64,000 bases of DNA from an uncultured Anaerolineae bacterium (GTDB taxonomy: Bacteria; Chloroflexota; Anaerolineae; Anaerolineales; Villigracilaceae), in NCBI GenBank assembly GCA_903875215.1, contig CAIQVH010000010.1, forward strand, positions 62,001 through 126,000. Reading direction: 5' to 3'. The notes beneath the pieces were generated by a model. The model was not told the origin of the DNA. It worked only from the letters and a program-made list of their open reading frames with translations, and ran no database searches. Below are positions 2,683-60,168 of the stretch, piece after piece; the first letter of the stretch is position 1; each line of letters starts with the position of its first letter. The position numbers and the translations under genes were made by a program.

Positions 2683-2689
2683 TTTTTCC

Positions 2690-11934: not shown

Positions 11935-13532
11935 CGCAGCACCCCGCGCTCCTTCAACCAACCTTTGATCATGGAAAGCTCGTTTTGCTCGGTACTTGTG
12001 CGCTTTAACAAGGCGGAATTGCGGCGCAACCCCTTGAAGGTGCCCTGCACCAACATGGACAGGGCAGAAAACTTATCCGGCAGCGGATCAGGTTTGAATT
12101 CGCGCGTCGAATCCAGGGCATAATCCTTCAGGGCAAACTCCTGGCCTTCAGTTTCAGCCTGTTTTCTCTTACGCTCCACCTGGTCGCGCTCCTTTTCAGC
12201 GTTCGTCTTCCACTGCGTCGTCCACTGGCTGATCAAGCGCTCTTCGATATCAGGCGCAAACATCACGCGCTTCACACTGACACTAATCACCTGCAAGCCC
12301 ATCCTGGAAAGCTGATCAAATTCCAGGCTGGCAACCTTGACCAGGTACTCGGAGGCATCCGCAGCCCTTTTATGACTCATCAGGAAGGAATACATTCCCT
12401 GCCAGCTAAATTCATCCGAAGACTTGAACCGATCCAACTCAGACTGGAGGCTGATATAGCGGCCTTCATTTTGGTGGCTGCGAAATACCGCTTCACACTC
12501 CTCGGCCGATTTAACCACCATCCGGCCAAACGGATCGAACTGCTCGACCTCTTTCTGCCTCAAACGTTTCGCCACAACCGCGCTGATCAGCTCCAGGCCG
12601 GTTTCCGGACGATCCTCCGAGCTCTCAAACAATTCACTGAACCGGTAGCGGCTCAGGTGCTCGCGCCAGACGTCCACAGCCATCTTGGCCGGCAGCGGAT
12701 TCCAGACCGGGCGCGACAGATCAGCTCCACGGGTAATGCTATCGCGGATTGCTTTTTCGGCATTGGCCTGGTTGAATCCAAACCGCGTGTTTCCTTCGCC
12801 CTCCTTGGCAGAAATTCGAAACATCACTGAAAGCGAGGCCACGACTTCAATGCCATCCCGCGTCATCGCGCTGGTCTCCCAGCGGCGCTTCTGAATGGCT
12901 TCATAATCCTCGGGAATATGTGCCTGATCGTTGGCAGCCTTGGCTTTTTCGGACTTGAAGGGGTCTTTCTCATTCACATCCGTATCGAGAGGCCCCAAAT
13001 TCTGAAGTAACTGGTGCAAATCGACTGTTGCGTAAATGAATTCGTCCGCATCCGTGAAATACACCCCGGGCCCAATGGTGCGCTTAAATTCGACGCGTGT
13101 GCGCAAAACTGCCGCGCTGGCGCTATCCAACCAGATCACGCCCGGTCCTGAACGTTTGGTCTCGCCCTCCTTGGCGCGCACATGACCATTTTCCACGAAC
13201 AAGGCCGGACCATGCCCGCCAAACGGGGGCGGCAGGATATATGTCACCAGCCGGCTGACCACCTTCAACCGGTCGCCGACTGTTTTGACCGGCAAAACAA
13301 ACTGGGCAAAAAACGCCAGCCAGACCCCCAGCCCGAGGACACACAGCAGGGCATCCGCGGCCTGAGTGGACGGATTCTGCAGCGGCTCCAAGGCCATCTC
13401 CTCCTTGAACAACAAAGCCCACAGGGGCGAGAGCCATCCCAAGAGAAAATAGACAAAAACAAATGCAAAAAAAGCGCCTGCAGCGCGCACCCGGTAATCT
13501 TTTAAAAGGCTGGTTCGTTCTTCCATCATCAT
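11931..13532 (-). CDS. SPFH/band 7-like membrane protein, first of a pair
   Basis: About 533 residues. Three consecutive ATGs (13532, 13529, 13526) are possible starts. A TATAGA/TAGAAT-like -10 sits just upstream, so the transcript may be leaderless from the second or third ATG. Two N-terminal hydrophobic helices precede an SPFH-like domain (GPGVIWLDSASAAVLRTRVEF, IGPGVYFTDADEFIYATVDL, TRDGIEVVASLSVMFRIS), then a long charged helical region (ERDQVERKRKQAETEG) typical of the coiled coil after SPFH domains. It probably assembles at the membrane with the product of the next gene. Confidence 0.65.
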   Translation of the reverse strand: MMMEERTSLLKDYRVRAAGAFFAFVFVYFLLGWLSPLWALLFKEEMALEPLQNPSTQAADALLCVLGLGVWLAFFAQFVLPVKTVGDRLKVVSRLVTYILPPPFGGHGPALFVENGHVRAKEGETKRSGPGVIWLDSASAAVLRTRVEFKRTIGPGVYFTDADEFIYATVDLHQLLQNLGPLDTDVNEKDPFKSEKAKAANDQAHIPEDYEAIQKRRWETSAMTRDGIEVVASLSVMFRISAKEGEGNTRFGFNQANAEKAIRDSITRGADLSRPVWNPLPAKMAVDVWREHLSRYRFSELFESSEDRPETGLELISAVVAKRLRQKEVEQFDPFGRMVVKSAEECEAVFRSHQNEGRYISLQSELDRFKSSDEFSWQGMYSFLMSHKRAADASEYLVKVASLEFDQLSRMGLQVISVSVKRVMFAPDIEERLISQWTTQWKTNAEKERDQVERKRKQAETEGQEFALKDYALDSTREFKPDPLPDKFSALSMLVQGTFKGLRRNSALLKRTSTEQNELSMIKGWLKERGVLR

Positions 13533-46997: not shown

Positions 46998-47432
46998 CTA
47001 AGACATTTTCACCACGCCTTTTTTGAGCACCAGGTTGGCATATTGGGCCATTTCGCTGGTCGCCACCACTGCATAAGCTTGGCGGGCGCGCTCATAAAAA
47101 GCAAACCGTTCGATGGCTTCAAAGTCGGTGAAGGCCGGGTTGTTTTTCTTCAAAATGGCTCGATATTCTTCCCAAATGAGTGGTTTGTACGGGTCCCCGG
47201 GCACGACGGCCATCAGACCGACCGGTTTTTCGACGTAGGTATCGAGCGGAAAAATTTGCAGGATGGCTTCCAGCAGGGGCGGAGCATTCAAGCCGTCGGC
47301 GCGTACCAGTCGCCGGGCCACGCTGCCAGCGGGGAAGTTGCCGTCGGCAATGATCAATTCGTCACCGTGACCCATTTCCATCAAAATTTTGATCAGGTCA
47401 GGCGAAATCAGCGGGGAAATTCCTTTGAGCAT
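46998..47432 (-). CDS. fucU: L-fucose mutarotase (RbsD/FucU family)
   Basis: 144 residues. MLKGISPLISPDLIKILMEMGHGDE is the family N-terminus (key: MGHGDE with the conserved His and Asp), then IADGNFPAGS. It interconverts anomers of L-fucose so that the isomerase or kinase gets the right form. The FucU rather than RbsD call rests on ADGNFPA and on the fucI gene 21 bases upstream. Last gene of the operon. Confidence 0.92.
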   Translation of the reverse strand: MLKGISPLISPDLIKILMEMGHGDELIIADGNFPAGSVARRLVRADGLNAPPLLEAILQIFPLDTYVEKPVGLMAVVPGDPYKPLIWEEYRAILKKNNPAFTDFEAIERFAFYERARQAYAVVATSEMAQYANLVLKKGVVKMS

Positions 47433-47453
47433 GATGTTCTCCCAGAACCATTT

Positions 47454-49250
47454 TTATCCGTAAACGGGGCCAAAGGTGGCGCAGGCGCGATAATCGGCAC
47501 TGGTATAGTCACTGGCGCCAAAAGCGCTCCAGGCGCTTGGGCGGAAAATTTTCTCGTCGGGGACATTGTGCATGCAAACCGGAATGCGCAGGATGGAAGC
47601 CAGGCTGATCATGTCGGCGCCGATGTGACCATAGCTCAAGGCACCGTGATTAGCGCCCCAATTGGCCATGACCGAGTAAACATCACGGAAAGCGCCCTGC
47701 CCGGTGACATTCGGGACAAACCAGTGGGTCGGCCAGGTGGGGTCGGTGCGTTCGTTCAGGGTGGTGTGAACGTTTTCGGGCAGGTCGACGGTCCAGCCTT
47801 CGGCGATTTGCAGGACTGGGCCAAGACCTTTGACCAGATTGAGGCGACTCATGGTGACGGGCATCCCGCCGCGGGTCAGAAATCCGCTGGAGTAGCCGCC
47901 GCCGCGGAAGTAGCCTGTGTTGGCCGGGTACCAGGTGGTTGCCTCGAAGCATTTCCTGGCTTCTGCGGGCGTGACCTGCCACCAGGGTTTGATGGCGGGT
48001 TGGCCGTCGATTTCGTGCCAGCCGGTGGCGTCCAGCGTGGCAGCGCCAGAATTGATGAGATGGATGAATCCGCCCGCCGCGCGGCCGTTGACTTCGTAGC
48101 CAGTAACGCGCTTGACGGCATCTGGGCTCCAGTAGGTGCGCACATCCGCAAAAACCTGGGCGGTATTGGTGAGCAGGTGACCAAAGAGCATGGTTGCGCC
48201 GTTCAGGCTGTCGTTTTCGGTGGCGACGATGTAGGGCTGGCGCGGGCCGTTCCAGTCGAGGGAGGTGTTCAGGATGGCTTCAAGGAAATCGCCATTCGGC
48301 TGGTAATCCGTCCACTGCCGCTGGCCTTGAAAGCCGGATAGGATGGCATTGTGCCCGAGCGCTTCCTCGGCAAATCCAAGTTCGGCCAGGCGCGGGTTGC
48401 CGTTCATCAGGTCGCGGGCGATCAAAGTCATTTTGACAACTTTTTCCCAATCTTGATCTTTTTGGGCGCGCGTGCGTTGATGGCTGGGCGGGTTGTACTC
48501 GCGACCTTCCGGGCAGTTTTCCTTGACCCACGGCATGGCGCGCTGGAACTCTTCAGAGTCGTAGATGCCAAAGTCGATGCGCCGCAGGAATTCGGTTGTA
48601 TCGATGACTTCGACGCGCATCCCCAGATAAGACTCAAAGAACGGCTGGTCAACGATGGAACCGGCAATGCCCATGGAAACGCCGCCCATCGAGAGATATG
48701 ATTTTCCGCGCATGGTGGCGGCTGCCAGCCCGGCGCGGGCAAAACGAAGCAGTTTTTCCTTGACATCCTCCGGGATATTCTTATCTCCGGAATCCTGCAC
48801 ATCGTGCCCGTAAATCGAAAACGCGGGCAAACCTTTCTGGTTGTGCGCGGCCAGCACAGCCGCCAGATAAACAGCGCCGGGGCGTTCCGTCCCGTTGAAG
48901 CCCCAGACCGCTTTCGGGATGAGCGGATCCATATCCATTGTTTCGGAGCCATAGCACCAACAGGGCGAAACAGTGATCGAAAGACCTACGCCCGCGCGGG
49001 AAAATTTCTCGGCACAGGCGGCCGCCTCGGCCACGCCGCCAATATTTGTATCCGCAATGACACATTCTACTGGCTGACCATTTGGATGGCGTAAGTTGGC
49101 GGTCAACAAGTCAGCAACTGCATGTGCCAACGACATGGTAGTCTCTTCGAGCGATTCGCGCACGCCCTGCCAGCGCCCATCAATCGCAGGCCGAATACCG
49201 ATCTTGGGCAATCCGCCAATCCAACGGTTCGGGGCATAGGTTTCAGACAT
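47454..49250 (-). CDS. fucI: L-fucose isomerase
   Basis: 598 residues from the ATG at 49250 with GGAGGTAATA upstream; full length for FucI. Family segments: [59 protein letters not shown] shortened to [12 protein letters not shown], and [18 protein letters not shown] with the metal Glu and Asp. It converts L-fucose to L-fuculose in the cytosol. Many relatives also accept D-arabinose. The matching kinase (fucK) and aldolase (fucA) are not in this window. Confidence 0.95.
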
Positions 49251-49291
49251 TATTACCTCCAAGTGATAAAAAAATGACAATCTGCCGCTCA

Positions 49292-49351
49292 AAAAGATGC
49301 CCTATGCTATAAGCTGGATCGAAACCGGGCTTTAGCAGTAGGGCATCTTTT
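49292..49351 (-). terminator. Intra-operon hairpin between the binding-protein gene and fucI
   Basis: 13-bp perfect outer arms AAAAGATGCCCTA (49292-49304) and TAGGGCATCTTTT (49339-49351), with further inner pairing (TGCTATAAGC with GCTTTAGCA). In the minus direction TTTTT follows. It could attenuate transcription into fucI and keep the binding protein more abundant. Confidence 0.75.
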
Positions 49352-49406
49352 ATTCAGCCCCAGAAGCAGGGCACAGTCAACCGCTGGTGATTAGCCAGCT
49401 GGCAAA

Positions 49407-50384
49407 TTACTTGTACAGCACAGCCTGGATCTTGGCGTCGTCGATGTTGGTCTTGTCGTACCAGTAGAAGCCAGTGTCGATGACCTTGGGCAGAGTCTCG
49501 CCCTTGTAGGCCTTGAGGGCAGCTTCAACGCATTTGTAGCCGATACCGACGGGGTTCTGGGTGATAGCGCCCGCTTCGGTGCCTGCGCGGATGGCGTCCA
49601 TCTGCTGTTGGCCGGAGTCATAACCGATCACAACGATTTTGCCTTCCATGCCCAGTTCCTTTACAGCGTTCAAAACGCCGATGATGGAACCTTCATTGGC
49701 GCCAAAGAAGCCCTTCAGGTTCGGGTGCGCCTGAATGATGGCCTTGGCCAGGTCGGTGGATTTGAGCTGATCGCCGCCGCCGTACTGCGTGTCGACAATC
49801 GTGACTTTCGGGTACTTGCTTACGATCTGGTCGGTGAAGCCCTTGACGCGATCGATACCGGTGCGGCTGGTCTGATCGTGAGCGATGATGGCAACTTCGC
49901 CTTCGCCGCCGATGAGTTCAACCATCTTGTCAGCGGCCAGGTTGGTCGCGGCAATGTTGTCGGTGGAAGCGGTGGCAGCCGGGATGTCACTGTCAACACC
50001 AGAGTCGAAACCGATGACGGGGATGTTGGCGGCTTTGGCTTTTTCCAACAGGGGCTGGAAAGCCTTGGAGTCAACAGCGGCCAGACAAATCGCGGCGGGT
50101 TTCTTGTCCAGAGCGGTCTGGAACATTTCAACCTGCTTGTCCACCATAGCTTCAGATTCAGGACCTTCGAAGGTGATATCCACATTCAGGTCTTTGGCGG
50201 CCTGTTCGGCGCCCAATTTCACTGCCTGCCAGAACTGGTGCTGGAAGCCCTTGGAAATCACGGGAATGTAGGGTTTCGCAGCAGCAGGAGCTTCGGTTGC
50301 CTGTGCGGCAGGGGCGCAACCTGTAACCAGGGCAACCACAACCAAAAGGCTGATCAGGGTGGCTAATACTTTTTTGGTAGTCAT
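49407..50384 (-). CDS. Sugar ABC transporter substrate-binding lipoprotein (RbsB-like)
   Basis: 325 residues. Lipobox VTGC with Cys23. The type I periplasmic binding protein fold of the ribose/galactose family is clear: ISKGFQHQFWQAVKLGAEQAAKDLN, AICLAAVDSKAFQPLLEKAKAANIPVIGFDS in pieces, and GFFGANEGSIIGVLNAVKELG. Linkage to fucI and fucU suggests L-fucose or a related deoxy- or C6 sugar as ligand. Confidence 0.93.
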   Translation of the reverse strand: MTTKKVLATLISLLVVVALVTGCAPAAQATEAPAAAKPYIPVISKGFQHQFWQAVKLGAEQAAKDLNVDITFEGPESEAMVDKQVEMFQTALDKKPAAICLAAVDSKAFQPLLEKAKAANIPVIGFDSGVDSDIPAATASTDNIAATNLAADKMVELIGGEGEVAIIAHDQTSRTGIDRVKGFTDQIVSKYPKVTIVDTQYGGGDQLKSTDLAKAIIQAHPNLKGFFGANEGSIIGVLNAVKELGMEGKIVVIGYDSGQQQMDAIRAGTEAGAITQNPVGIGYKCVEAALKAYKGETLPKVIDTGFYWYDKTNIDDAKIQAVLYK

Positions 50385-50508
50385 AGATTCTCCTCGAATT
50401 GAAATTTTGAATGGTACGTGACAGGATTAATGGATCTTTCTATATCTTATTTGGCGATAATAGGCCTCCTTATAAAGTTATTTTTTAGATTGCCGCGACG
50501 ATCAATTT

Positions 50509-51495
50509 TTAGCGGCGGCGGCGCAAGATGTCCAAGAAAACGGCCAGGATGACGATGCCACCCGTGACCACCATCTGCCATTCCTGTGGCACGGAAAGGA
50601 TACGCAGACCATTGGTAAGAGTGCTGATAATGAAAGCCCCGATAATGGTTCCCAGGATCGAGCCTTCACCACCGCTGAGGGATGTTCCGCCAATCACCAC
50701 GGCCGCAATCGCGTCCAATTCGTAACCAGCGCCCAAAGCCGGTTGGGCCGAGTTCAAACGAGAAGCCATCAAAACTCCACCAATGCCTGCAAAAAAGCCG
50801 CACAAGGTATATACAGCGGTTTTCCAGGCAGCCACATTGACGCCTGAAAGACGCGTGGCTTCTTCGTTGCTGCCCAGGGCAAATGTATAACGCCCGAGGA
50901 CGGTGCGGGTCAGTATAAAGTTAGCAATAATTGCTGCCCCAAACAATATGAAAACGGCATTGGGCACTTCGAAGCCGGGAATGATTTTTCCCAAAATTGA
51001 ACCCATGGCCATTTCACGGAAAGCGGGAGTGTCGTTGAAGTAAATCGGCTTCAACTCTGAAATCACCAGGGAAAGGCCTTTGGTCGCATACAACATACCC
51101 AACGTAGCGATAAAGGGCGGAATCTTCATGCGTGAGATCAAGGTCCCGTTGACGAACCCCGCCAGGCTGCCAGCCAGGACGCCGCCCAGGATCCCGAGCG
51201 GAATGGGCAGATGCCAGTTGGTAATAAACACACCCGTCAACACCGCGGAGAAGGTCAGTACCGTCCCCACCGACAGGTCAATGCCAGCGGTGATGATGAC
51301 GAAGGTCACGCCCAGGGCGAGCACTCCGTTGACGGCTGTCGCCAGCAGGATGCCTACAAAGTTATCAAACGTACGAAAATAGGGTGATGCAACCGAAAAA
51401 CCGATAGACAACACAATCAGGGCACTGAAGGCCATCAGCCGCTGCATGGCGTCAGAACGGAACAAGGTTTGGGCAGTTTTGGTTTCACTTTTCAT
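50509..51495 (-). CDS. Sugar ABC transporter permease (RbsC-like)
   Basis: 328 residues, about nine helices. Features of the BPD_transp_2 family: ITAGIDLSVGTVLTF, the EAA-like loop GSNEEATRLSGVNVAAWK, and AVVIGGTSLSGGEGSILGTIIGA. It forms the membrane channel for the sugar importer. The end of the upstream ATPase gene lies 39 bases before its start. Confidence 0.93.
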   Translation of the reverse strand: MKSETKTAQTLFRSDAMQRLMAFSALIVLSIGFSVASPYFRTFDNFVGILLATAVNGVLALGVTFVIITAGIDLSVGTVLTFSAVLTGVFITNWHLPIPLGILGGVLAGSLAGFVNGTLISRMKIPPFIATLGMLYATKGLSLVISELKPIYFNDTPAFREMAMGSILGKIIPGFEVPNAVFILFGAAIIANFILTRTVLGRYTFALGSNEEATRLSGVNVAAWKTAVYTLCGFFAGIGGVLMASRLNSAQPALGAGYELDAIAAVVIGGTSLSGGEGSILGTIIGAFIISTLTNGLRILSVPQEWQMVVTGGIVILAVFLDILRRRR

Positions 51496-51534
51496 GTTTT
51501 TTTCATTTCCGTGTTTGAAGGATGGATAGCCTGT

Positions 51535-53082
51535 TTATGCACTTGCCTGCACCACACTGCCACGCATGGTGGCAAATTTCATTATGCTTTCCTGGGTTGC
51601 CTCGCTGGCATTCAAAACCCCGGTCACTCGCCCTTCGCACATCACCACCACTCGATGACTCATGCGCAAGACTTCAGGAAGTTCAGAGGAAATCATGATG
51701 ATGGCCTTACCTTGATGGGCCAAATCGTTAAGCAGTTTATAGATTTCACTCTTGGCGCCTACGTCAATGCCGCGCGTAGGCTCATCGAAAATCAAAATAT
51801 CTGTATCCGCTGTCAGCCATTTTCCAACCACCACTTTTTGCTGGTTACCGCCCGAAAGGAATTTTACCTTCTGTTCAAGACTCGGTGTTTTGATATTCAA
51901 AGCCTTAACCATTTCCTGGCCGCGGGCAGCGGTTCTTTTAAAATCCACCCAGCCCAGCCAGCTCAGAAACTTTTTCATGGCAGCCATGGCGACATTTTCT
52001 TTCACATCCATTCCCAGAGCCAATCCATACCGTTTGCGGTCTTCAGAAAGATACCCTACCCCTTGTGAAACCGCATCTCCGGGGCTTTTGATGTGAACCC
52101 TCTGGCCCTTGACGTAAATTTCACCAGAGTCATAGGGATCAGCGCCGAAGATGGCCCGCGCTACTTCAGTCCGCCCGGCACCCATCAGCCCGGCAAAGCC
52201 GAGAATTTCTCCCCTTTTCAAGCTGAAACTGACATCCTTGAGCAATTTTCCGCTGTTCAGGTTGCGGACTTCCAACACAACTTCCTGGCTCGGATTTTCC
52301 GGCAGTTCGGGGGCAGATTCGTAGATGATACGTCCCACCATCAGGCTGATAATTTGATTAATCGGGGCGGCCTGCGTTTGAAGCGTATCGATGTATTTTC
52401 CATCACGCATGACCGTGACACGATCTGAGATTTGCTTGAGCTCCTCCAGGCGGTGTGAAATATGGACAATGCCCACGCCTTTTTCACGCAGCTGCCGGAT
52501 GACGCTGAACAACTCTTCTATCTCTGTGTCCGTCAGGGCAGCTGTGGGTTCATCCATGACCAGGATTTTTGCATTGTAAGATAATGCCTTTGCAATTTCC
52601 ACCATTTGTTGCTTGGCAACCGTCAGGTCCGAGACTTTGGTAGTCGGGTCCAATTGCAGGTTGAGCAACTTGAAAAGATTCTCAGCCTGCTGATTGGTGG
52701 TTTTATCATCCATCAAGAAAGAAATCTTTGAACGGGGTTCGCGCCCGATAAAAATGTTCTGGGCAATCGTCAGATGCGGCATCAGATTCAGTTCCTGGTG
52801 AATAATGCTGATGCCCAGGTCTTGTGCCATGCGGGGAGAATGAATCTCCACTGCGCGGCCTTCCAAATAAACCTGCCCGGCATCCATGTGATAGATCCCA
52901 CCGAGTATCTTCATCAGGGTAGACTTCCCTGCACCATTTTCACCTACCAGGGCATGGACTTCGCCGTAGCGCAGTTCAAAACGGGCATCGCTGAGCGCTT
53001 GAACGCCCGGAAAGGACTTGTACACACCTTCCATGCGGAGCAAAACTTCATGGTTTTCTGATGATGTATTTGGTAGTGTCAT
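51535..53082 (-). CDS. Sugar ABC transporter ATPase with two nucleotide-binding domains
   Basis: 515 residues. First domain: Walker [10 protein letters not shown], degenerate signature [10 protein letters not shown], Walker [12 protein letters not shown]. Second domain: divergent Walker [10 protein letters not shown], signature LSGGNQQKV, and Walker [12 protein letters not shown]. This is the RbsA/MglA layout, in which the second P-loop is altered. It powers import of the sugar bound by the downstream lipoprotein. Confidence 0.95.
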
Positions 53083-53118
53083 AGCTATCCTGAAATAGTT
53101 TTGCCTGAATAAATGGCG

Positions 53119-53892
53119 TTAATCAACGCTGCAGAGGGTGAAAGCAATTCCAGCCTGTTGAAAGCGCACAACCCATTCATCATTCAGATCCGAATCTGTG
53201 TAGATGTGCGTAATTTGAGCCAGGCTGGCAAAGGATGTCAGATCCTCCTTGCCGATTTTGGAGGAATCCACCAGGGCAATAACTTCGTGGGCTGAAGCCA
53301 GCGCTTTACTTTTCAATTCCGCTTCAGCCAGGTGAACATCCGTCAGCCCGCGCGTCAGGCTGAAACCGCTGCAAGAGACAAATGCTTTTTGAACACGCAG
53401 CTCGCGAATAATCTGCTCGCTCAGCGACCCGGTAACCGAGGAACCATCCATGGTAACGATGCCGCCAATGAGTACCACGGTGTTGCTCGAGTTTTTTGCC
53501 AACAGGCGGGCTACATCAATCCCATTTGTCACAGCCCGTAGGCGATGACGATTTTTCAACTGCTGAGCCAGGAAATATACCGATGTGCTGGCATCCAAAA
53601 AAATGGAAGCTCCATCAGCAACAAGCTCCGCCGCCTTTCGGGCAATCGCCAACTTGGAAACTGATTGTGCCTGATAACGAGTCCCAATGTCGGGATCATA
53701 TTGGGTTGATGATCTACCCAAAACCGCCCCGCCATGGACGCGTGTCAACACTCCTTCTTCCTTGAGCGCATCCAGGTCATTGCGGACTGTACCTTTGGAC
53801 ACTCCCAGGGCATTAGCCAACTCGGACACGCGTGTTCCGGGCTGTTTTTGGAGTAGCTGAATGAGAGTTTGCCTGCGTTCGTATGTGGTCAC
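53119..53892 (-). CDS. DeoR-family repressor of the fucose operon
   Basis: 257 residues from a GTG start. The N-terminal DeoR helix-turn-helix reads RQTLIQLLQKQPGTRVSELANALGVSKGTVRNDL by key parts (VSELANALGVSKGTVRND), and the C-terminal sugar-phosphate-binding domain includes DASTSVYFLAQ, VLIGGIV and VDSSKIGKED. It probably senses a phosphorylated sugar. It is the first gene of the transport and isomerase operon and so likely controls itself. Confidence 0.92.
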   Translation of the reverse strand: MTTYERRQTLIQLLQKQPGTRVSELANALGVSKGTVRNDLDALKEEGVLTRVHGGAVLGRSSTQYDPDIGTRYQAQSVSKLAIARKAAELVADGASIFLDASTSVYFLAQQLKNRHRLRAVTNGIDVARLLAKNSSNTVVLIGGIVTMDGSSVTGSLSEQIIRELRVQKAFVSCSGFSLTRGLTDVHLAEAELKSKALASAHEVIALVDSSKIGKEDLTSFASLAQITHIYTDSDLNDEWVVRFQQAGIAFTLCSVD

Positions 53893-53946
53893 AATAACCG
53901 ATTGTTTCTACTTTTTTGTATTATTTTGTCAATTAGATACTAAAAC

Positions 53947-53975
53947 ATCATACGACTTTTGTTTTTGCCTGTCAA
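53947..53975 (-). promoter_or_regulatory. Promoter of the fucose operon
   Basis: Minus strand: -35 TTGACA (53970-53975), 17-base spacer, -10 TATGAT (53947-53952). A second TTGACA lies about 40 bases downstream, nearer the start, so there may be two promoters or an operator repeat. Confidence 0.75.
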
Positions 53976-54031
53976 TTAGTGTTTTTTTATGGATAAATGG
54001 AATGAAAAATATACTCAATATCATCTTTCCA

Positions 54032-55108
54032 TCACCGGCCAGGAGCGGCACAGGAAGCTCGTTTGATAAGATCGACTCGCTGCGGAATTGGATCAACAAC
54101 CGTTTCGCCATTGATCATCTTCATCAGGAGTTGGGCAGCTGTCTGTCCCAGGCGGTAGGAGGGTTGCGACAAAACCGTCAGGGGCGGAGAAAACAACGGC
54201 GCCCAATCATGGTCATCAAAACTGATTAGTGAAATGTCTTCGGGGCAAGCCAAACCGCATTCGCGAATGGCGTACAGCGCGCCCAGGGTGAGCTGGTTAC
54301 TGGTCACAAAGAGCGCGGAGGGCCTGCGGGGTGAACGCAGCAGCACCTGTAAAACTTCGTAAGCGGAACGCATCCCGGGACGGTGCGAGGTGGGACGCAC
54401 GATCGGCACCGAGTGCTGCGCATCCGACTGGATGCCGTAAAAGTGCGGGTCAGCGCGGATCACCAGTTCCCTATCCACCGGTAGACCGGCTTCCTGCAGG
54501 GCGCGTTCCCAACCCTGCAAACGGTCATGCTGGGTAGTGATGGCATCATAATGAATCAGGCAGGCAATGCGTTCGTGACCGAGACTGATCAGGTAGCGAA
54601 TCGCCTGGTAGGCACCATCTTCATTGTTGACGCCGACCATTGGCGCCATTAAGTCGGGGCTGCGCCGGTCGAGTTGGACGATTGGGATGCCACTCTCAGC
54701 CATGGCCAGCAAATTCTCATTGCGAGTGCCGGTCGGGGCAATGATCAGGCCGTCGATCTGCTGGGAGGCCAGCAGGCGCAGACAATCATCCTCGCGCTGG
54801 GGAATTTCATCGGTGTTATTTAAGATGACGTTGTAGTGAGATGTCAAAAAGACATCTTCGATACCACGAACGGCGGCTGTAAAAAATGGATTGGAAATAT
54901 CGGAAATGACCAACCCTATTTTTCGCGTGATGTTGGTGACCAGACTGCGCGCCAGCGCATTGGGCCGGTAACTCAGGGCTTTGATGGCCTCCAGCACCTT
55001 CTGTTCTGTCTCAGGGCTCACAAAGCGCGTCTTATTGACAACGTGTGAGACCGTTGCAATTGAGACACCGGCGAGCCGGGCGACATCCATGCTGGTGGGT
55101 TTGGGCAC
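54032..55108 (-). CDS. LacI-family regulator 1
   Basis: 358 residues from a GTG start at 55108 with AGAGG six bases upstream. The HTH reads SMDVARLAGVSIATVSHVVN, with the hinge helix SYRPNALARSL. The effector domain follows the LacI/PurR plan (VISDISNPFFTAAVRGIE, ISLISFDDHDWAPLF). Its promoter carries two GTAAGCGCTT operators, so it probably represses itself. It lies between the sugar importer and the GDP-sugar operon and may control either. Confidence 0.93.
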   Translation of the reverse strand: MPKPTSMDVARLAGVSIATVSHVVNKTRFVSPETEQKVLEAIKALSYRPNALARSLVTNITRKIGLVISDISNPFFTAAVRGIEDVFLTSHYNVILNNTDEIPQREDDCLRLLASQQIDGLIIAPTGTRNENLLAMAESGIPIVQLDRRSPDLMAPMVGVNNEDGAYQAIRYLISLGHERIACLIHYDAITTQHDRLQGWERALQEAGLPVDRELVIRADPHFYGIQSDAQHSVPIVRPTSHRPGMRSAYEVLQVLLRSPRRPSALFVTSNQLTLGALYAIRECGLACPEDISLISFDDHDWAPLFSPPLTVLSQPSYRLGQTAAQLLMKMINGETVVDPIPQRVDLIKRASCAAPGR

Positions 55109-55180
55109 ACAAGCCTCTTTTTCAAAAAAGGATGCTTCCGAACTTATAAAATTTGGCTAACAATAAAGATTTTGGGGGAC

Positions 55181-55204
55181 GTAAGCGCTTGCGTAAGCGC
55201 TTAC
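55181..55204. promoter_or_regulatory. Two abutting LacI-type operators
   Basis: GTAAGCGCTTGC (55181-55192) and the perfect palindrome GTAAGCGCTTAC (55193-55204) lie directly one after the other, just downstream of the -10 box of the lacI-like gene. The core AAGCGCTT is the classic LacI/CcpA-type half-site pair. Confidence 0.88.
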
Positions 55205-55207
55205 GCA

Positions 55208-55236
55208 ATATTAACATAACGCTGACAGACTGTCAA
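55208..55236 (-). promoter_or_regulatory. Promoter of LacI-family regulator 1
   Basis: Minus strand: -35 TTGACA (55231-55236), 17-base spacer, -10 TAATAT (55208-55213). The operators begin four bases downstream of the -10. Confidence 0.8.
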
Positions 55237-55276
55237 TAAGCAAATTTCGAATAGTAACCCAACCAAACAATCTCCC

Positions 55277-56329
55277 CTACCCGGCGCGAATTTTCTCAAA
55301 TTCGGTGCGTACCAGTTCCGCAGAAAAGCGCAAATAGTCATCTTTGCTGAAGGTCAGCATGTTGCCGGTCAGCTCGAACCAGGCGAAGCCGCTCGTCCAG
55401 CTCGAATGGCGATAGGTGCCCTGTCGCCGCCGCTCAAAGCCATAGATCCGCCCCGGAGTAAATAATAAGTTATACGAAGTTTTGTCGCGGCTGTGGATTT
55501 CTTTCATCCAGACCCAGGCCGTTTGCCAGCTTTCGAACACTTTACAGGGCAGCGGATACTCATCCGCCCCCCCATTGTGTCGCCAGTTCTGCCAGCTGAC
55601 CGGCATCCCGCGTGGTTCGATAAAGGTCTGGAAATGCAGATGGTTGACAGAGGCGAAGGTGCCCAAGGAGTTGTACCCCAGCCCAAAGCCGGGCAAATGA
55701 TCCGCCAGAGAAGCGATCGCATCCCAGGCCCAGGCCAGCAGTTCGTCATCAAGAAATTGGCGCAGCTTGCGCTCCGGCTCAAGCAAAAGCAGGGAATGCA
55801 GCCGCGCAAACGGATATTTGTTGTACAACAAACAGGCCGACTTGCCCGCCAACTTTCCGCACCAGAAGCTTTCCCGCTCCAGGATGCGCGTATCGTAATA
55901 AAACGTCCGTTCGTTGAATGGACTTGAGATGGATGGAACGGGATGCACGGCTGAACGTTGGGGCCGGAAAGAACGCAGTTGATTAAACTGCACATTCCAG
56001 GGACCAACCTGGCGGTGCTCGGTAACTTGCAGCTGATCCAGACCAATCAGCGCGATTTTCAGGAAAACCAGCAAGTCCTCGGCGTATCGGTCATTGAACA
56101 GGCGTCCATGCGAAAGAAAATCCGCACAGACGGCGCGCAGGCGCAGGTAAGAGGCATTCAAAGCGGGTTCCAGCGCGCTCAAAACCTGGCTGTTGAAATA
56201 GGCATTGGCACAAACCAGCACAAACGCGCCCAGACCAAAATCGGGCGCGTTTTCTTCCTCGCGCAACAATAAAGCCAGTTTACGCTGGTAAGCCTCCCAA
56301 AAGGCTGGTTCGGAAGTAAAAATTGTCAT
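55277..56329 (-). CDS. VTC2/GDPGP1-like GDP-hexose phosphorylase (HIT superfamily)
   Basis: 350 residues. The key block at residues 216-234 reads GLGYNSLGTF then ASVNHLHFQ. Plant GDP-L-galactose phosphorylase VTC2 has the almost identical LGYNSLGAF and ATINHLHFQ, with catalytic His in HLHFQ (here His232). A C-terminal FELTGNMLTFSKDDY also matches the VTC2 end (EISGHM, DY). Plants use the enzyme to turn GDP-L-galactose and phosphate into L-galactose 1-phosphate and GDP; animal relatives act on GDP-glucose. It ends an operon headed by a GDP-mannose 3,5-epimerase. I know of no well-studied bacterial case, so the substrate is inferred. Confidence 0.82.
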   Translation of the reverse strand: MTIFTSEPAFWEAYQRKLALLLREEENAPDFGLGAFVLVCANAYFNSQVLSALEPALNASYLRLRAVCADFLSHGRLFNDRYAEDLLVFLKIALIGLDQLQVTEHRQVGPWNVQFNQLRSFRPQRSAVHPVPSISSPFNERTFYYDTRILERESFWCGKLAGKSACLLYNKYPFARLHSLLLLEPERKLRQFLDDELLAWAWDAIASLADHLPGFGLGYNSLGTFASVNHLHFQTFIEPRGMPVSWQNWRHNGGADEYPLPCKVFESWQTAWVWMKEIHSRDKTSYNLLFTPGRIYGFERRRQGTYRHSSWTSGFAWFELTGNMLTFSKDDYLRFSAELVRTEFEKIRAG

Positions 56330-56359
56330 ATTCTGTCCGGAAACAATAAACGATAAGCC

Positions 56360-57184
56360 CTAAAAGCCACGCAGATCGGTAGACTGGCGACGCGGCAGGC
56401 CAGGCGCGGGAGTGCGCTGCAGCACAATATATTCCAGATGATTCTCGGCGCTGAAGGCGCGTTTTTCGGGCTTGTCGCCTTCGGCGTTGACGGCATAAGC
56501 ATCGATGCCCACGCGCTCGATCTCCGGCTCGGCATCCATCCAACCGTGCCCGCTGGTGATGAGCGCCTCCTTCACATAACGGATGGCTTGCACCATGTAA
56601 CGGCGTTCGGCTTCCGGAAAGAGCGGATGGCCCTCGCCTTTGAGCAGGCGCAGGTTGGCGTCATGCCCCACCCCAACATACAAATCACCCAGTCCGGCCA
56701 CTTCTTCGAAAAAGCGGACATGCCCGGAGTGCAGCCAATCGAAACAACCGGTGACGATGACCTTCTTGCGGCTGCTGGCGGGATAATGCTGCGCCGGACT
56801 CCAGGCCGGGAACACGCTCAGGCTGGCTTCGGGGATGACGACATATTCGAGGCCATGGGACTGACAAAACGCCCGTTTCGCAGGGTTATCCGCCGCTTGA
56901 TCGACCACCCACACTTCCGGCTGGATGCCGCTTAGGCAGGGCAGAGCATCAGCCTCGACAGCCTCATCCGGGCAGATTTCCACCGTGCTGACGTAACGAA
57001 TGGCGTTCAACAGATACAGGCGCTCGTCCAGCGGGAATTTGGGGGCGTGACCTTCCAGCCGTTCAGCGGTCACATCGGACCACAGGCGCACACACAGCGC
57101 GCCCAGTTTGGCGGCCTCTTCCAGAAAACGGATGTGGCGCGAGCGCAGGTTGTCAAAGCTACCGGTGACGAAGACGTTTTTCAT
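56360..57184 (-). CDS. Tandem HxGH nucleotidyltransferase with degenerate first domain
   Basis: 274 residues in two cytidylyltransferase-like domains. Domain 2 (from residue 141) has the intact GCFDWLHSGH (His152, His155), LLKGEGHPLFPEAERRYM, and ends RRQSTDLRG, as in the HldE/GmhB-linked ADP-heptose synthases and glycerol-3-phosphate cytidylyltransferases. Domain 1 (residues 1-130) has GSFDNLRSRH, where the first His is Arg14 and the Gly is Arg16, so it is probably inactive. It likely activates a sugar 1-phosphate with a nucleotide. The stop of the GHMP kinase gene overlaps its start in an ATGA. Confidence 0.8.
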   Translation of the reverse strand: MKNVFVTGSFDNLRSRHIRFLEEAAKLGALCVRLWSDVTAERLEGHAPKFPLDERLYLLNAIRYVSTVEICPDEAVEADALPCLSGIQPEVWVVDQAADNPAKRAFCQSHGLEYVVIPEASLSVFPAWSPAQHYPASSRKKVIVTGCFDWLHSGHVRFFEEVAGLGDLYVGVGHDANLRLLKGEGHPLFPEAERRYMVQAIRYVKEALITSGHGWMDAEPEIERVGIDAYAVNAEGDKPEKRAFSAENHLEYIVLQRTPAPGLPRRQSTDLRGF

Positions 57185-57963
57185 AAGCGCACGCGCACCT
57201 TCAAAGCGCCCGGCACGGGCTGATCAGAAATTACATACAAATAGCCTCCGCCGCAGCCGGAATACATTGCCCCGGCGTAGCGCGACTGGTAGTAACGCAT
57301 CAGGCCGACCAGATCCACGCTCAGCGCCGGGTGGCGCACGGTGTGTGGCAGGAGCGTTTCCCAGCAGAGCATGCATTCGTTGAAGGAAGCGCCCAACGCT
57401 CTGGCATCCCTGTCGAGGATGGCAGTGTAACAATCACGGCCGCTCTGCCCCAGCCGCCGCACCCATTGCGGGTCCAGGTTCTTGACTCCCAGCGGGGAAT
57501 AACCCGCCGGGCGCTGATTAACCGGCAGAACGTGCAGCACGTTTTCCAGCCAGGCGGCCACCACCGGATCCGTGTTGGACTCAACGTGAGCGGGAAAATA
57601 GCCGTCGTCCACACTGGCGTCATAGTCCAGGCGATTGACGCCCGGATAAATCAGCCCGGCCATATCCTGTGAACCGGACGGGGCGGTTTTGCCCTTATTT
57701 TCAGCCTGGTACAACTCGCGGACCAGGCTGGCCGGCTCACGGGGGGGAAATGAATCCCCCCACAGGCGCAAGGCAACCTTGCGGGTGCTGGTTCCCATCC
57801 CGCAGCGATCCATCCAATAAAAATCCGGTTCCAACCCCACCACCACCATGGAACCGGGCGGCGTGGGGTTGAGACGCGAGACGAAGGGCTGGTCGATCCA
57901 GCCGCCAGCCAGCGCGGCGCGGTACGGAATGCCGCCGATGACGCGGCGCAGGTCGTTTTCCAT
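57181..57963 (-). CDS. GHMP-family sugar kinase (HddA/fucokinase-like)
   Basis: 260 residues from the ATG at 57963, one base after the epimerase stop. Motif 1 resembles the HddA/fucokinase form (ALAGGWIDQP), motif 2 is CGMGTSTRKVA, the SGSQDMAGLIYPGVNRLDYD segment matches the QDQ-x-A-x-x-GG-x-N-x-x-x-F block of heptose kinases, and motif 3 is GCGGGYLYVIS. It is shorter than FKP-type fucokinases. Expected role: phosphorylating a sugar at C1 to feed the nucleotidyltransferase. Substrate unknown; L-fucose or L-galactose would fit the context. Confidence 0.78.
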   Translation of the reverse strand: MENDLRRVIGGIPYRAALAGGWIDQPFVSRLNPTPPGSMVVVGLEPDFYWMDRCGMGTSTRKVALRLWGDSFPPREPASLVRELYQAENKGKTAPSGSQDMAGLIYPGVNRLDYDASVDDGYFPAHVESNTDPVVAAWLENVLHVLPVNQRPAGYSPLGVKNLDPQWVRRLGQSGRDCYTAILDRDARALGASFNECMLCWETLLPHTVRHPALSVDLVGLMRYYQSRYAGAMYSGCGGGYLYVISDQPVPGALKVRVRL

Positions 57964-57964
57964 C

Positions 57965-59032
57965 TTAGCCGGGCAGGGCGACGGGAGCTTCGGTGACAAC
58001 GCGCTTGCCAGCCTTGCGGTCATCATACTGGCTCTTGATCCAGTTGTAAGTCTTCTCCATGCCAGCGCGCAGGGTGGTGGACGGTTCCCAATCGAGCACT
58101 TCCTTGATGAAAGTGTTGTCGCTGTTGCGCCCGGCCACGCCCTTGGGGGCATCCAGTTTGTAGTGGCGCTCGAGTTTGACGCCCGCGATGTCCTCGACCA
58201 TGCTGACAAGCTGGTTGATGGAGACCAGTTCGGCGGAGCCGAGGTTGATCGGTGTGGCAATCAGGTCTTCGCAGTGCGTGATCTGGTCAATGCCGAAGGT
58301 GCAGTCGTCGATATACATGAAACTGCGCGTCTGCGAGCCATCGCCCCAGATTTCGATGGCGCCGGAGCCGCTGTCGATGGCCTCGATCACCTTGCGGCTG
58401 ATGGCCGCCGGAGCCTTCTCGCGCCCGCCGTACCAGGTGCCGTTCGGCCCGTAGACGTTGTGGAAGCGCGCGATGGCGGTTTTCATGCCGCGTTCGGCAT
58501 AATATTCCTCGCAGAACATTTCGCTGACCAGCTTTTCCCAACCGTAGCCGCGTTCGGCCATGGCGGGGTAAGCGTCGCTCTCTTTCAGCGCCACCACGTT
58601 CGGATCCGTTTGCAGCGTGGTGTTATACGCGCAGGCCGAAGATGAGAAAAAGTAACGCTGCGTCCCGGCGCGATAGGCGGCTTCCAGCAGGTGCGTATTG
58701 ATCAAAATCGAGCGCAGGCACTCAACGCGAAAGCGCTCGATGAAGCCCATCCCGCCCATATCCGCGGCCAGGTTGTAGACCTCCACCGCCCCTTCCACGG
58801 CGCGGATGGCGTTTTCGTTCTCGCTCAAATCCATGCACAGCACTTCCGTGCCGGGCACGCGCTGGTACCACTGCGGCAGCGGTTTCTTATCCACGGCGCG
58901 GATATTGGTAAAGCCCTGCTCGTGAAAGCGGCGCACCAGCGACCCGCCGATAAATCCGCCCGCGCCCGCGACCAAAATCAGGTCGTTTTTTTTCAAATCC
59001 GGGCTGGTGGAAGCAATAACATTTGTTTTCAT
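57965..59032 (-). CDS. GDP-mannose 3,5-epimerase-like enzyme
   Basis: 355 residues, extended SDR. NAD-binding GAGGFIGG at 23-30. It matches plant GDP-mannose 3,5-epimerase through the active site: AADMGGMGFI (89-98), SSACAY with Cys134, YGWEK with Tyr163 and Lys167 (same spacing as Cys145, Tyr174 and Lys178 of the plant enzyme), FHNVYGPNGTWYGGREKAP with the second catalytic Lys, WGDGSQTRSFMYIDD, and GRNSDNT near the end. It converts GDP-D-mannose to GDP-L-galactose (and GDP-L-gulose). AGGAG precedes the ATG. First enzyme gene of the operon. Confidence 0.92.
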   Translation of the reverse strand: MKTNVIASTSPDLKKNDLILVAGAGGFIGGSLVRRFHEQGFTNIRAVDKKPLPQWYQRVPGTEVLCMDLSENENAIRAVEGAVEVYNLAADMGGMGFIERFRVECLRSILINTHLLEAAYRAGTQRYFFSSSACAYNTTLQTDPNVVALKESDAYPAMAERGYGWEKLVSEMFCEEYYAERGMKTAIARFHNVYGPNGTWYGGREKAPAAISRKVIEAIDSGSGAIEIWGDGSQTRSFMYIDDCTFGIDQITHCEDLIATPINLGSAELVSINQLVSMVEDIAGVKLERHYKLDAPKGVAGRNSDNTFIKEVLDWEPSTTLRAGMEKTYNWIKSQYDDRKAGKRVVTEAPVALPG

Positions 59033-59116
59033 GATTTTCTCCTATTGAGTGATTGTGATACCGGTGCCAAAATGAAGTTAACGATGGACCATGGATGATG
59101 GTCTGTCGTCTATGGT

Positions 59117-60118
59117 TTACCGTTTGATAACCGATTTCCGCTCGACGATTTCGACCGGCAAAACAACTTCCTGCGGAGCCTGCGCCCCGTCACCTGCCAA
59201 CCGTTTAATCAGCAGATTCGTCGCCTCGCGGCCCATCTCGTACGCCGGTTGGGCAGCCACCGTCAAAAAGGGATCCAGCAGCAGCGAAGCGGGAAGATCG
59301 TCAAACCCGACCACCGAAATCTCCTCCGGCACGCGGATCCCGGCTGCGCGCAGGGCTTGCATCATCCCGATGGCGATGAAGTTATTCCCGGCAAAAATCG
59401 CCGTCGGGCGCGGCTGAGCCGCCAGCGCCTGGCGTACCATGTCCTGTCCGCTCTGGATGGTGAACGCGCCATAAAAGACACTTTCAGCGTCTGAATCGAG
59501 GCCCGCTTCGCGCAGCGCCCGGCGATAACCCGTGACCCGGTCGGTGGCGGTAGCAACGTGCTCCGGCCCGGTCAGCAGCGCAATTTGACGGTGACCACGC
59601 TCCAGCAGCAGACGAGTCAACTGGTAGGCGCCGCTCTCCGAATCGCAGCGTACCGCATCAGCCAGCGGCTGCGATAGGCGCCGGTCGAGCACCACCAGCG
59701 GCACCTTAAGCATTTGCACGCGCTGAATATCCTCCAGGTCATCCCGCGCCGGGACGAGCAAGACACCATCGACGCGCTTTTGCAGTAAGGCCGTCAGGTA
59801 TTCTTCCTGTTTTTGCGGGGATTCATCGGTATTGCACAAGATGACGTGATAACCGGCCTCGCTGGCGGCATCCTCCACCCCACGCGCCACCGTCGTCCAG
59901 AAGGGATTGGTGACATCCGTCAATACCAGCGCCAGCATGCCGGTCTGCTTCCAACGCAAACTCTGCGAGAGCGAATTGGGCACATAGCCCAACTGGCTGA
60001 CCGCCGCTTCCACCTTCTGACGTGTTTCCGCGCTGATATAGCCCGTGTTGTTGATCACACGCGAAACTGTTATCGGGGCAACACCTGCCAGTTTGGCTAC
60101 TTGTCGAATGGTCGTCAT
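59117..60118 (-). CDS. LacI-family regulator 2
   Basis: 333 residues from the ATG at 60118. The HTH reads TIRQVAKLAGVAPITVSRVIN, the hinge helix YVPNSLSQSLR, and the effector domain has VLTDVTNPFWTTVARGVED and ISVVGFDDLPASLLLDP. Its promoter contains the palindrome GGTACCGGTACC just before the start codon, so autorepression is likely. It lies 84 bases upstream of the GDP-mannose epimerase gene in the same direction and is the probable regulator of that operon. Confidence 0.93.
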   Translation of the reverse strand: MTTIRQVAKLAGVAPITVSRVINNTGYISAETRQKVEAAVSQLGYVPNSLSQSLRWKQTGMLALVLTDVTNPFWTTVARGVEDAASEAGYHVILCNTDESPQKQEEYLTALLQKRVDGVLLVPARDDLEDIQRVQMLKVPLVVLDRRLSQPLADAVRCDSESGAYQLTRLLLERGHRQIALLTGPEHVATATDRVTGYRRALREAGLDSDAESVFYGAFTIQSGQDMVRQALAAQPRPTAIFAGNNFIAIGMMQALRAAGIRVPEEISVVGFDDLPASLLLDPFLTVAAQPAYEMGREATNLLIKRLAGDGAQAPQEVVLPVEIVERKSVIKR

Positions 60119-60122
60119 ATAT

Positions 60123-60134
60123 GGTACCGGTACC
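60123..60134. promoter_or_regulatory. Operator palindrome of LacI-family regulator 2
   Basis: GGTACCGGTACC, a perfect 12-bp palindrome between the -10 box and the start codon. Confidence 0.78.
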
Positions 60135-60138
60135 AGAG

Positions 60139-60168
60139 AGTATAACACAAATCCAAAGAGTGATGCAA
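60139..60168 (-). promoter_or_regulatory. Promoter of LacI-family regulator 2
   Basis: Minus strand: -35 TTGCAT (60163-60168), 18-base spacer, -10 TATACT (60139-60144). Confidence 0.7.

Follow-up and report, generated by a model that had tools for sequence, protein, structure and literature searches.

VTC2, the rate-limiting enzyme of vitamin C synthesis, is said to occur only in green plants, similar proteins being known from animals and scattered protists (PMC4396506, PMC11066809), without mention of a bacterial member in those passages. A VTC2 cycle was proposed by Wolucka and Van Montagu in 2007 (as cited in PMC11066809). The bacterial catabolism of L-galactose known from Luteolibacter LG18 is oxidative, leading through L-galactose dehydrogenase to L-galactonate and D-tagaturonate (PMC12632266, which cites Phocaeicola vulgatus), and the term GDP has 0 occurrences in the main text of that paper. 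Here we describe a four-gene operon encoding a GDP-mannose 3,5-epimerase (GME) together with a VTC2-like protein (VTC2L), located in a 64,000-nucleotide stretch (the window) that is part of contig C10 of the 3.77-Mb genome of an uncultured Anaerolineae bacterium. The setting of the operon suggests a new GDP-based way of feeding on L-galactose rather than vitamin C synthesis, and we give about even chances to the reading that it encodes, in whatever form, a Leloir-like pathway for L-galactose that is inducible, catabolic and GDP-linked. This catabolic route is favoured because of a LacI-family repressor with its operator, a sugar importer, L-fucose isomerase (FucI), the catabolic island that surrounds the same genes in genome G715, and a GDP-mannose pyrophosphorylase (ManC) type protein in the slot of gene 4 in genome G725. 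The four genes are:

57965..59032, minus strand: GME, GDP-mannose 3,5-epimerase, 355 amino acids (aa) (PDB match 2c59, active-site residues, tree)
57181..57963, minus strand: kin, short GHMP-type sugar kinase, 260 aa, proposed L-galactokinase (family profile against FKP)
56360..57184, minus strand: NT, tandem RfaE/HldE-type nucleotidyltransferase (PF01467; rfaE_dom_II under cut-off)
55277..56329, minus strand: VTC2L, VTC2-like histidine-triad (HIT) protein, 350 aa (Smith-Waterman, hhalign, HIT match of an orthologue)

The tight packing of these genes on the minus strand, reported by a first-pass annotation, was confirmed from the coordinates of the open reading frames (ORFs), with a 1-base gap between GME and kin, an ATGA overlap shared by kin and NT, and 30 bases between NT and VTC2L. 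Gene 1 belongs firmly, by sequence, to the GDP-mannose 3,5-epimerase family. Its best solved-structure match in the PDB was Arabidopsis GME (2c59, E 8.2e-79; next family, E 1.4e-22), with 133 of 300 aligned residues identical. The plant active-site pattern previously ascribed to the protein was borne out, as all eight Arabidopsis residues (listed in PMC8787198) are kept: S143, C145, Y174, K178, N203, K217, R243 and R306 correspond to S132, C134, Y163, K167, N192, K206, R236 and R302 in the window, a set that comprises the Ser/Tyr/Lys triad, the Cys/Lys acid-base pair and the active-site Arg and Asn. In a tree, the epimerase falls inside a group of 24 rows, 24 of which carry the motif GG(R/K)EK(A/S)P (rows L017 and L030 each contain one stop, treated as X). 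GME is not rare: matches at E <= 1e-40 were present in 20 of 301 Chloroflexota genomes, and 18 GME genomes remain when G017 and G027 are removed, whose matches (31-32% identity) lack the motif and stand apart in the tree. The three GME rows from the islands described below form one supported clade, with the nearest GMEs from G233 and G248.

By sequence comparison, gene 4 encodes a bacterial protein related to the VTC2/GDPGP1 histidine-triad family, neither VTC2 nor GDPGP1 being closer. In Smith-Waterman alignments, the window protein scored 116 against VTC2 and 123 against GDPGP1 (neither reference being a database sequence), and the maxima of 300 shuffles were 52 and 49, respectively; the G715 orthologue scored 111 and 118 against the same references. 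Alignment of the three-row VTC2L family with the same VTC2 and GDPGP1 references by hhalign gave 98% probability over 201 columns at 26% identity, a comparison that had no unrelated-sequence control. The stretch LGYNSLGTF...NHLHFQ was confirmed, and the HxHxQ motif (H230-L-H232-F-Q234) is identical in all three members. Pfam and NCBIfam models gave no match at E <= 1 to the window protein, and the G715 orthologue matched Pfam HIT (PF01230) at E 5e-4 with 21.1 bits, just below the cut-off of 21.5. For the Ap4A phosphorylase and GalT groups, named in the first-pass annotation as the competing identities, the Pfam models gave no match at E <= 1 to the VTC2L proteins of the window and locus L010. 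The earlier assignment stands as to the VTC2/GDPGP1 family, but does not extend to VTC2 in preference to GDPGP1. Because VTC2L is no nearer to one than to the other, its substrate is not readable from kinship. The proposed function is that of a GDP-mannose phosphorylase or GDP-mannose:L-galactose-1-phosphate guanylyltransferase. This equal nearness, together with the preference of the worm enzyme for GDP-glucose (PMC11066809), would also fit a GDPGP1-like clean-up enzyme for mistaken GDP-glucose that acts outside any pathway; however, VTC2L lies inside the operon in three of three carriers, and only 3 of 152 family genomes gave a match, which is not the pattern of a general repair enzyme; we consider such a role very unlikely. 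Horizontal transfer from plant to bacterium was dropped as an explanation, as VTC2L is no closer to VTC2 than to GDPGP1, and in the tree Chloroflexota rows enclose the GMEs of the islands.

The regulatory and transport setting of the operon is made up of the following features:

59117..60118, minus strand: lacI1, LacI-family repressor heading the operon (Pfam LacI and Peripla_BP); ATG at 60118 is the likely start, and a longer ORF reaches 60148
54032..55108, minus strand: lacI2, second LacI-family regulator (family scans)
53119..53892, minus strand: DeoR-family regulator (DeoRC E 2.2e-45)
51535..53082, minus strand: sugar ABC importer ATPase, RbsA-like (named from sequence; homologues in L054, L084 and L053)
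50509..51495, minus strand: ABC permease, RbsC-like (Pfam/NCBIfam scans)
49407..50384, minus strand: ABC sugar-binding lipoprotein, RbsB-like (Peripla_BP_4 E 5.4e-59)
47454..49292, minus strand: FucI (TIGR01089, 1045 bits, cut-off 850)
60122..60135, unstranded: putative operator TGGTACCGGTACCA, a perfect 14-bp palindrome 3 bp upstream of the lacI1 ATG
59056..59069, unstranded: candidate second, weaker operator before GME, with 2 mismatches
55189..55208, unstranded: perfect 20-bp palindrome TTGCGTAAGCGCTTACGCAA upstream of lacI2, also in L010

The order of transcription on the minus strand is lacI1, GME, kin, NT, VTC2L, lacI2, deoR, the RbsA/C/B-type importer and FucI. The putative operator TGGTACCGGTACCA adjoins a -10-like TATACT; in the window, L010 and L053 alike it stands directly before lacI1, though much of the flanking upstream DNA differs. 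Exact copies of TGGTANCGNTACCA were present in 10 of 88 loci, all 10 of them lacI1-GME neighbourhoods, which represent six distinct islands, and about 0.003 copies are expected in the window from base composition; in G725, exact copies precede GME or a GME remnant (L085, L086). Sites with at most 2 mismatches numbered 4 against 1.09 expected, a count reached in 5 of 100 shuffles, and the second copy alone is not significant. In L086, three more exact operators (618-631, 712-725 and 845-858) lie between lacI1 and a divergent ORF fragment at the contig end (3-380), which is lipoprotein-like, has no Pfam match and is perhaps the binding protein of another importer. A near-copy at 55183-55202 overlaps TTGCGTAAGCGCTTACGCAA, and the two near-perfect palindromes at 55183-55208 probably form the operator pair of lacI2. 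Operons that carry their own LacI-type regulator and stand next to an importer typically serve the use of sugars and not the building of cell walls.

This setting bears on the possibility that the operon salvages or supplies GDP-L-galactose that goes into a surface glycan, with VTC2L trimming surplus GDP-hexose. Elsewhere in the phylum, a glycosyltransferase neighbour was found at 7 of 14 tested GME loci (of 20; one or two neighbours scanned at each), one more locus (L026) has export-type neighbours, and kin together with NT resembles FKP, a salvage enzyme. No glycosyltransferase was seen by eye, however, in the 12.8-kb block of the window or in the ORFs of L053 and L057, where no systematic search was made, and the importer, FucI and LacI operators are found in the setting instead; we judge provision for a glycan to be unlikely.

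Positions 47332-60149 of the window match L010 (4146-17050) as a single stretch of 87.2% DNA identity, the likeness stopping at one edge where lacI1 starts and at the other where the L010 locus, as retrieved, runs out; the GME operon, importer and FucI therefore travel together. The gene set goes beyond chance because this block is conserved in a second genome and GME and kin are adjacent in G715, G718 and G725. The GME-kin-VTC2L triad is present in three of the three genomes that carry VTC2L, and NT varies among them, being tandem in the window and G714 and a fused NT-kinase in G715. Short-type kin (at least 67% identity) occurred in 5 of 140 family genomes (G000, G714, G715, G718 and G725), of which G000, G714 and G715 have VTC2L and G725 holds two kin copies; homologues of lacI1 (58-95% identity) precede GME or kin in the five other islands that were read. 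In G718, the same importer, whose RbsB-like binding protein is 83% identical to that of the window, lies on one contig with the operon; it adjoins a fused NT-kinase together with lacI1, GME and kin, and the contig stops 82 bases past kin. In G715, the set is flanked by FucI and a fused NT-kinase on one side and by DeoR, rhamnulokinase, ABC, RhaD, RhaA, AOR and Lut genes on the other, and thus sits within an island for L-fucose/L-rhamnose breakdown. RhaA, LutB and FucI passed their NCBIfam cut-offs; LutA and LutC were named by eye, rhamnulokinase (494 of 528 bits) and RhaD (158 of 170 bits with one model, 112 of 401 with another) stayed under their cut-offs, and AOR was far below the cut-off of its model.

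In G725, a ManC-type protein occupies the place of gene 4. Copy C123 has the order lacI1-GME-kin-NT-ManC, and copy C92 has kin-NT-ManC behind a truncated GME; this remnant (L085, about 1905-2210) lacks most of its middle, and kin, NT and ManC persist. The two ManC proteins are 79% identical and both pass PF22640; that of C123 matches TIGR01479 at E 3.7e-100 with 336 bits, under the cut-off of 373, and that of C92 is 47% identical to a mannose-1-phosphate guanylyltransferase homologue elsewhere in the window's genome, which has 304 bits, also below cut-off. TIGR01479 models a two-domain enzyme, and all three ManC-type proteins match it well, under cut-off. Four PGM/PMM-family genes are present in the window's genome. 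No VTC2L was detected on the two G725 contigs by tblastn with both VTC2L proteins; because the genome is 86% complete, absence of VTC2L from G725 is likely, not certain, and in the family search, whose 152 genomes are not all listed by name, only the three named VTC2L genomes matched. Plausibly, then, one GDP-mannose/mannose-1-phosphate enzyme has been swapped for another in G725, and the enzyme of that slot plausibly acts on GDP-mannose/mannose-1-phosphate. This replacement resembles a natural experiment pointing to the reaction of the slot.

The same ManC fits a supply role in a forward route in the plant direction, in which it would furnish GDP-mannose; the order of reactions matches Smirnoff-Wheeler, and plant VTC2 strongly favours that direction (PMC11066809). 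On the other hand, a forward route would spend GTP on making a sugar beside an importer and a LacI operator, its product formation would be reversed by the kinase and nucleotidyltransferase, and no phosphatase is among the operon's own genes. The forward production of L-galactose-1-phosphate that had been put forward for this locus is unsupported in view of LacI and its operator, the importer and FucI, the catabolic island of G715 and the ManC of G725, and we judge it unlikely; the other option offered there, an interconversion of GDP-sugars with the kinase and nucleotidyltransferase, comes close to the catabolic reading favoured here.

For kin, a role as L-galactokinase is proposed. A seven-row profile of its family, compared with the PDB, had its best matches in FKP structures (E 3.3e-13), followed by a heptose kinase (E 0.002), and R15, W22 and D24 of kin are kept counterparts of FKP R592, W599 and D601, the correspondence being drawn by spacing. 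One fused homologue (L014) matches GHMP_kinases_C (PF08544) at E 1.1e-5, over the cut-off, with L012 under it, and another fused kin homologue matches the fucokinase model PRK13412 over 70 residues at E 2e-17, under its cut-off. NT matches PF01467 (E 1.7e-19) and rfaE_dom_II (E 2.1e-23, below that model's cut-off); read by eye, its domain 1 is degenerate (RSRH for HxGH) and its domain 2 intact (HSGH). No FKP-style N-terminal NTP-transferase/beta-helix pyrophosphorylase is fused to kin, and the RfaE-type NT lies on its own gene instead. Fusions of an RfaE-type NT with a GHMP kinase, about 380-406 aa long, lie near L-fucose genes (mutarotase, fucosidase, aldolases and FucI) in several Anaerolineae, the window's own genome not being one of them. 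The fused proteins, and other homologues beside the islands, are:

L014:1081-2238 (G000:C21), L053:5554-6774 and L054:9206-10351: fused NT-kinases
L084:6101-7243, L087:6275-7417 and L088:7596-8738: fused NT-kinases
L053:810-1442, 1835-3163 and 12301-13398, L054:6982-8112 and L085:5007-6095: methyltransferase/corrinoid homologues

The fused NT-kinase has the look of an FKP analogue whose nucleotidyltransferase domain is unrelated. In G688, genes for a fucose mutarotase, aldolases, AOR, Lut proteins (Lut by eye) and an FGGY kinase of rhamnulokinase type lie near it, and in G661 it adjoins an alpha-L-fucosidase; these fucose-type neighbours point to L-fuco/L-galacto-configured sugars. L-galactose is 6-hydroxy-L-fucose. 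A substrate other than L-galactose, such as L-fucose, L-gulose or a methylated sugar, would be compatible with the FucI, fucose mutarotase and alpha-L-fucosidase genes near the related genes, with the corrinoid and MtaA-like methyltransferase homologues of G715 (under model cut-offs) and with the formation of GDP-L-gulose by GME (PMC6678494); yet L-fucose would presumably finish as a 6-deoxy-mannose phosphate of no obvious use, and its usual route would already be opened by FucI; we consider another L-sugar very unlikely. The corrinoid-protein and URO-D/MtaA-type methyltransferase homologues listed above are possibly for O-methylated sugars. A tandem double binding domain was seen by eye in ABC sugar-binding lipoproteins (L054:2-1345; L053:19168-20000 with L057:2-1267).

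On the catabolic reading, imported L-galactose would be phosphorylated by kin with ATP to L-galactose-1-phosphate, which NT would convert with a nucleoside triphosphate to GDP-L-galactose, either priming or replacing a transfer step; alternatively, VTC2L would move GMP, so that L-galactose-1-phosphate and GDP-mannose would be in exchange with GDP-L-galactose and mannose-1-phosphate. GME would interconvert GDP-L-galactose and GDP-D-mannose, from which VTC2L would free mannose-1-phosphate, either with phosphate or with the GMP handed to the next L-galactose-1-phosphate, and mannose-1-phosphate would enter central metabolism, the net conversion being L-galactose to mannose-1-phosphate. In G725, ManC working in reverse with pyrophosphate would close the cycle instead of VTC2L. 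We infer the substrates, the direction, the GMP acceptor and the standing in of ManC for VTC2L, and take the chemistry to be GDP-linked because of GME. Several properties of described enzymes are in keeping with these steps: FKP phosphorylates L-galactose and makes GDP-L-galactose, with an affinity roughly 100-fold weaker than for fucose (PMC11982464), VTC2 has a minor guanylyltransferase activity onto hexose-1-phosphate (PMC11066809), and the equilibrium of GME is unfavourable to the forward route, that is, to GDP-L-galactose (PMC8787198), which would make the catabolic direction downhill.

A number of points weigh against this interpretation. FucI could process L-galactose without a GDP route, and the ManC of G725 may supply GDP-mannose for the forward direction. 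The family names of RfaE-like nucleotidyltransferases presumably imply users of ATP or CTP, and guanylyl transfer by NT is only proposed; kin itself had 0 matches at E <= 1 to Pfam GHMP models and, in the span between matched motifs, falls short of FKP by about 95 aa. The homology of VTC2L rests on non-database reference sequences and on a HIT match just under cut-off, and its fold is unconfirmed because both AlphaFold2 predictions failed (pLDDT 36.5 with 2 rows and 41.1 with 3 rows, too poor for a fold search); sequence and profile comparison of VTC2L with the PDB gave only matches above E 0.4, taken as chance. Plant VTC2 passes GMP to hexose-1-phosphate at less than 10% of its phosphorolysis, and the reverse of its reaction is described as negligible in vivo (the Km for L-galactose-1-phosphate being 45 mM); the worm enzyme works slowly on GDP-mannose and GDP-L-galactose (PMC11066809). 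In its strict form, the interpretation would make VTC2L a true GDP-mannose:L-galactose-1-phosphate guanylyltransferase, the GalT of a complete mirror-type GDP Leloir pathway, and would give the eukaryotic VTC2/GDPGP1 family a catabolic relative in bacteria, the vitamin C enzyme having arisen either from it or alongside it; this form we hold tentatively, as somewhat unlikely.

VTC2L is narrowly distributed. The family search matched 3 of 152 genomes, which belong to a single genus; the order sample gave 2 of 400 and the phylum sample 1 of 301. Among 396 class genomes it was found in the window's genome alone, setting aside one weak match in G316 (E 4.3e-4; the frame, 1161 aa long, contains a stop) that was judged to be chance. 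These samples overlap, and the profile searches covered Chloroflexota genomes only. A single-sequence scan of an 84,980-species collection, which detects close relatives only, returned one VTC2L locus (L010, counted as one with G714:C67). No VTC2L was found in viral contigs or phages; plasmids gave no credible match, just two at E 7, and no match to the VTC2 reference sequence. No bacterial VTC2-family operon was found in the literature searched, a weak negative given that subscription papers were mostly outside coverage. With its natural partner enzymes beside it, a bacterial VTC2-family member allows a test of how the enzyme that limits the rate of vitamin C synthesis originated, and the operon could supply enzymes for making L-galactose and GDP-L-galactose.

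Compared with the Leloir pathway (GalK, GalT and GalE), the operon likewise unites a GHMP kinase, a HIT-superfamily nucleotidyl enzyme (its HIT match just under cut-off) and an SDR epimerase in one sugar-regulated operon, and would likewise achieve a net epimerisation of a sugar-1-phosphate through a catalytic nucleotide sugar; unlike Leloir, it would use GDP for UDP and L-galactose/D-mannose for D-galactose/D-glucose, its gene 4 is without a GalT Pfam match, and it has the extra NT. The Isselbacher route is the pyrophosphorylase variant of galactose metabolism, in which UDP-sugar pyrophosphorylase can substitute for GalT. Similarly, G725 has a pyrophosphorylase where other islands have the HIT enzyme, although that enzyme would be a GDP-mannose pyrophosphorylase, as judged from gene content alone. 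As in the Smirnoff-Wheeler route and the VTC2 cycle, GME and a VTC2-family enzyme would act consecutively, whereas the operon adds a kinase, NT, a LacI repressor and an importer, and its proposed direction is reversed. FKP, the Bacteroides L-fucokinase/GDP-fucose pyrophosphorylase, similarly couples a related kinase to a nucleotidyltransferase and accepts L-galactose, the proposed substrate of kin, but the kinase of the operon is short and its RfaE-type NT lies on a separate gene. Finally, the oxidative catabolism of Luteolibacter LG18 shares the presumed nutrient and differs in being a dehydrogenase route; the favoured reading predicts a non-oxidative L-galactose pathway, unlike this known bacterial one (PMC12632266).

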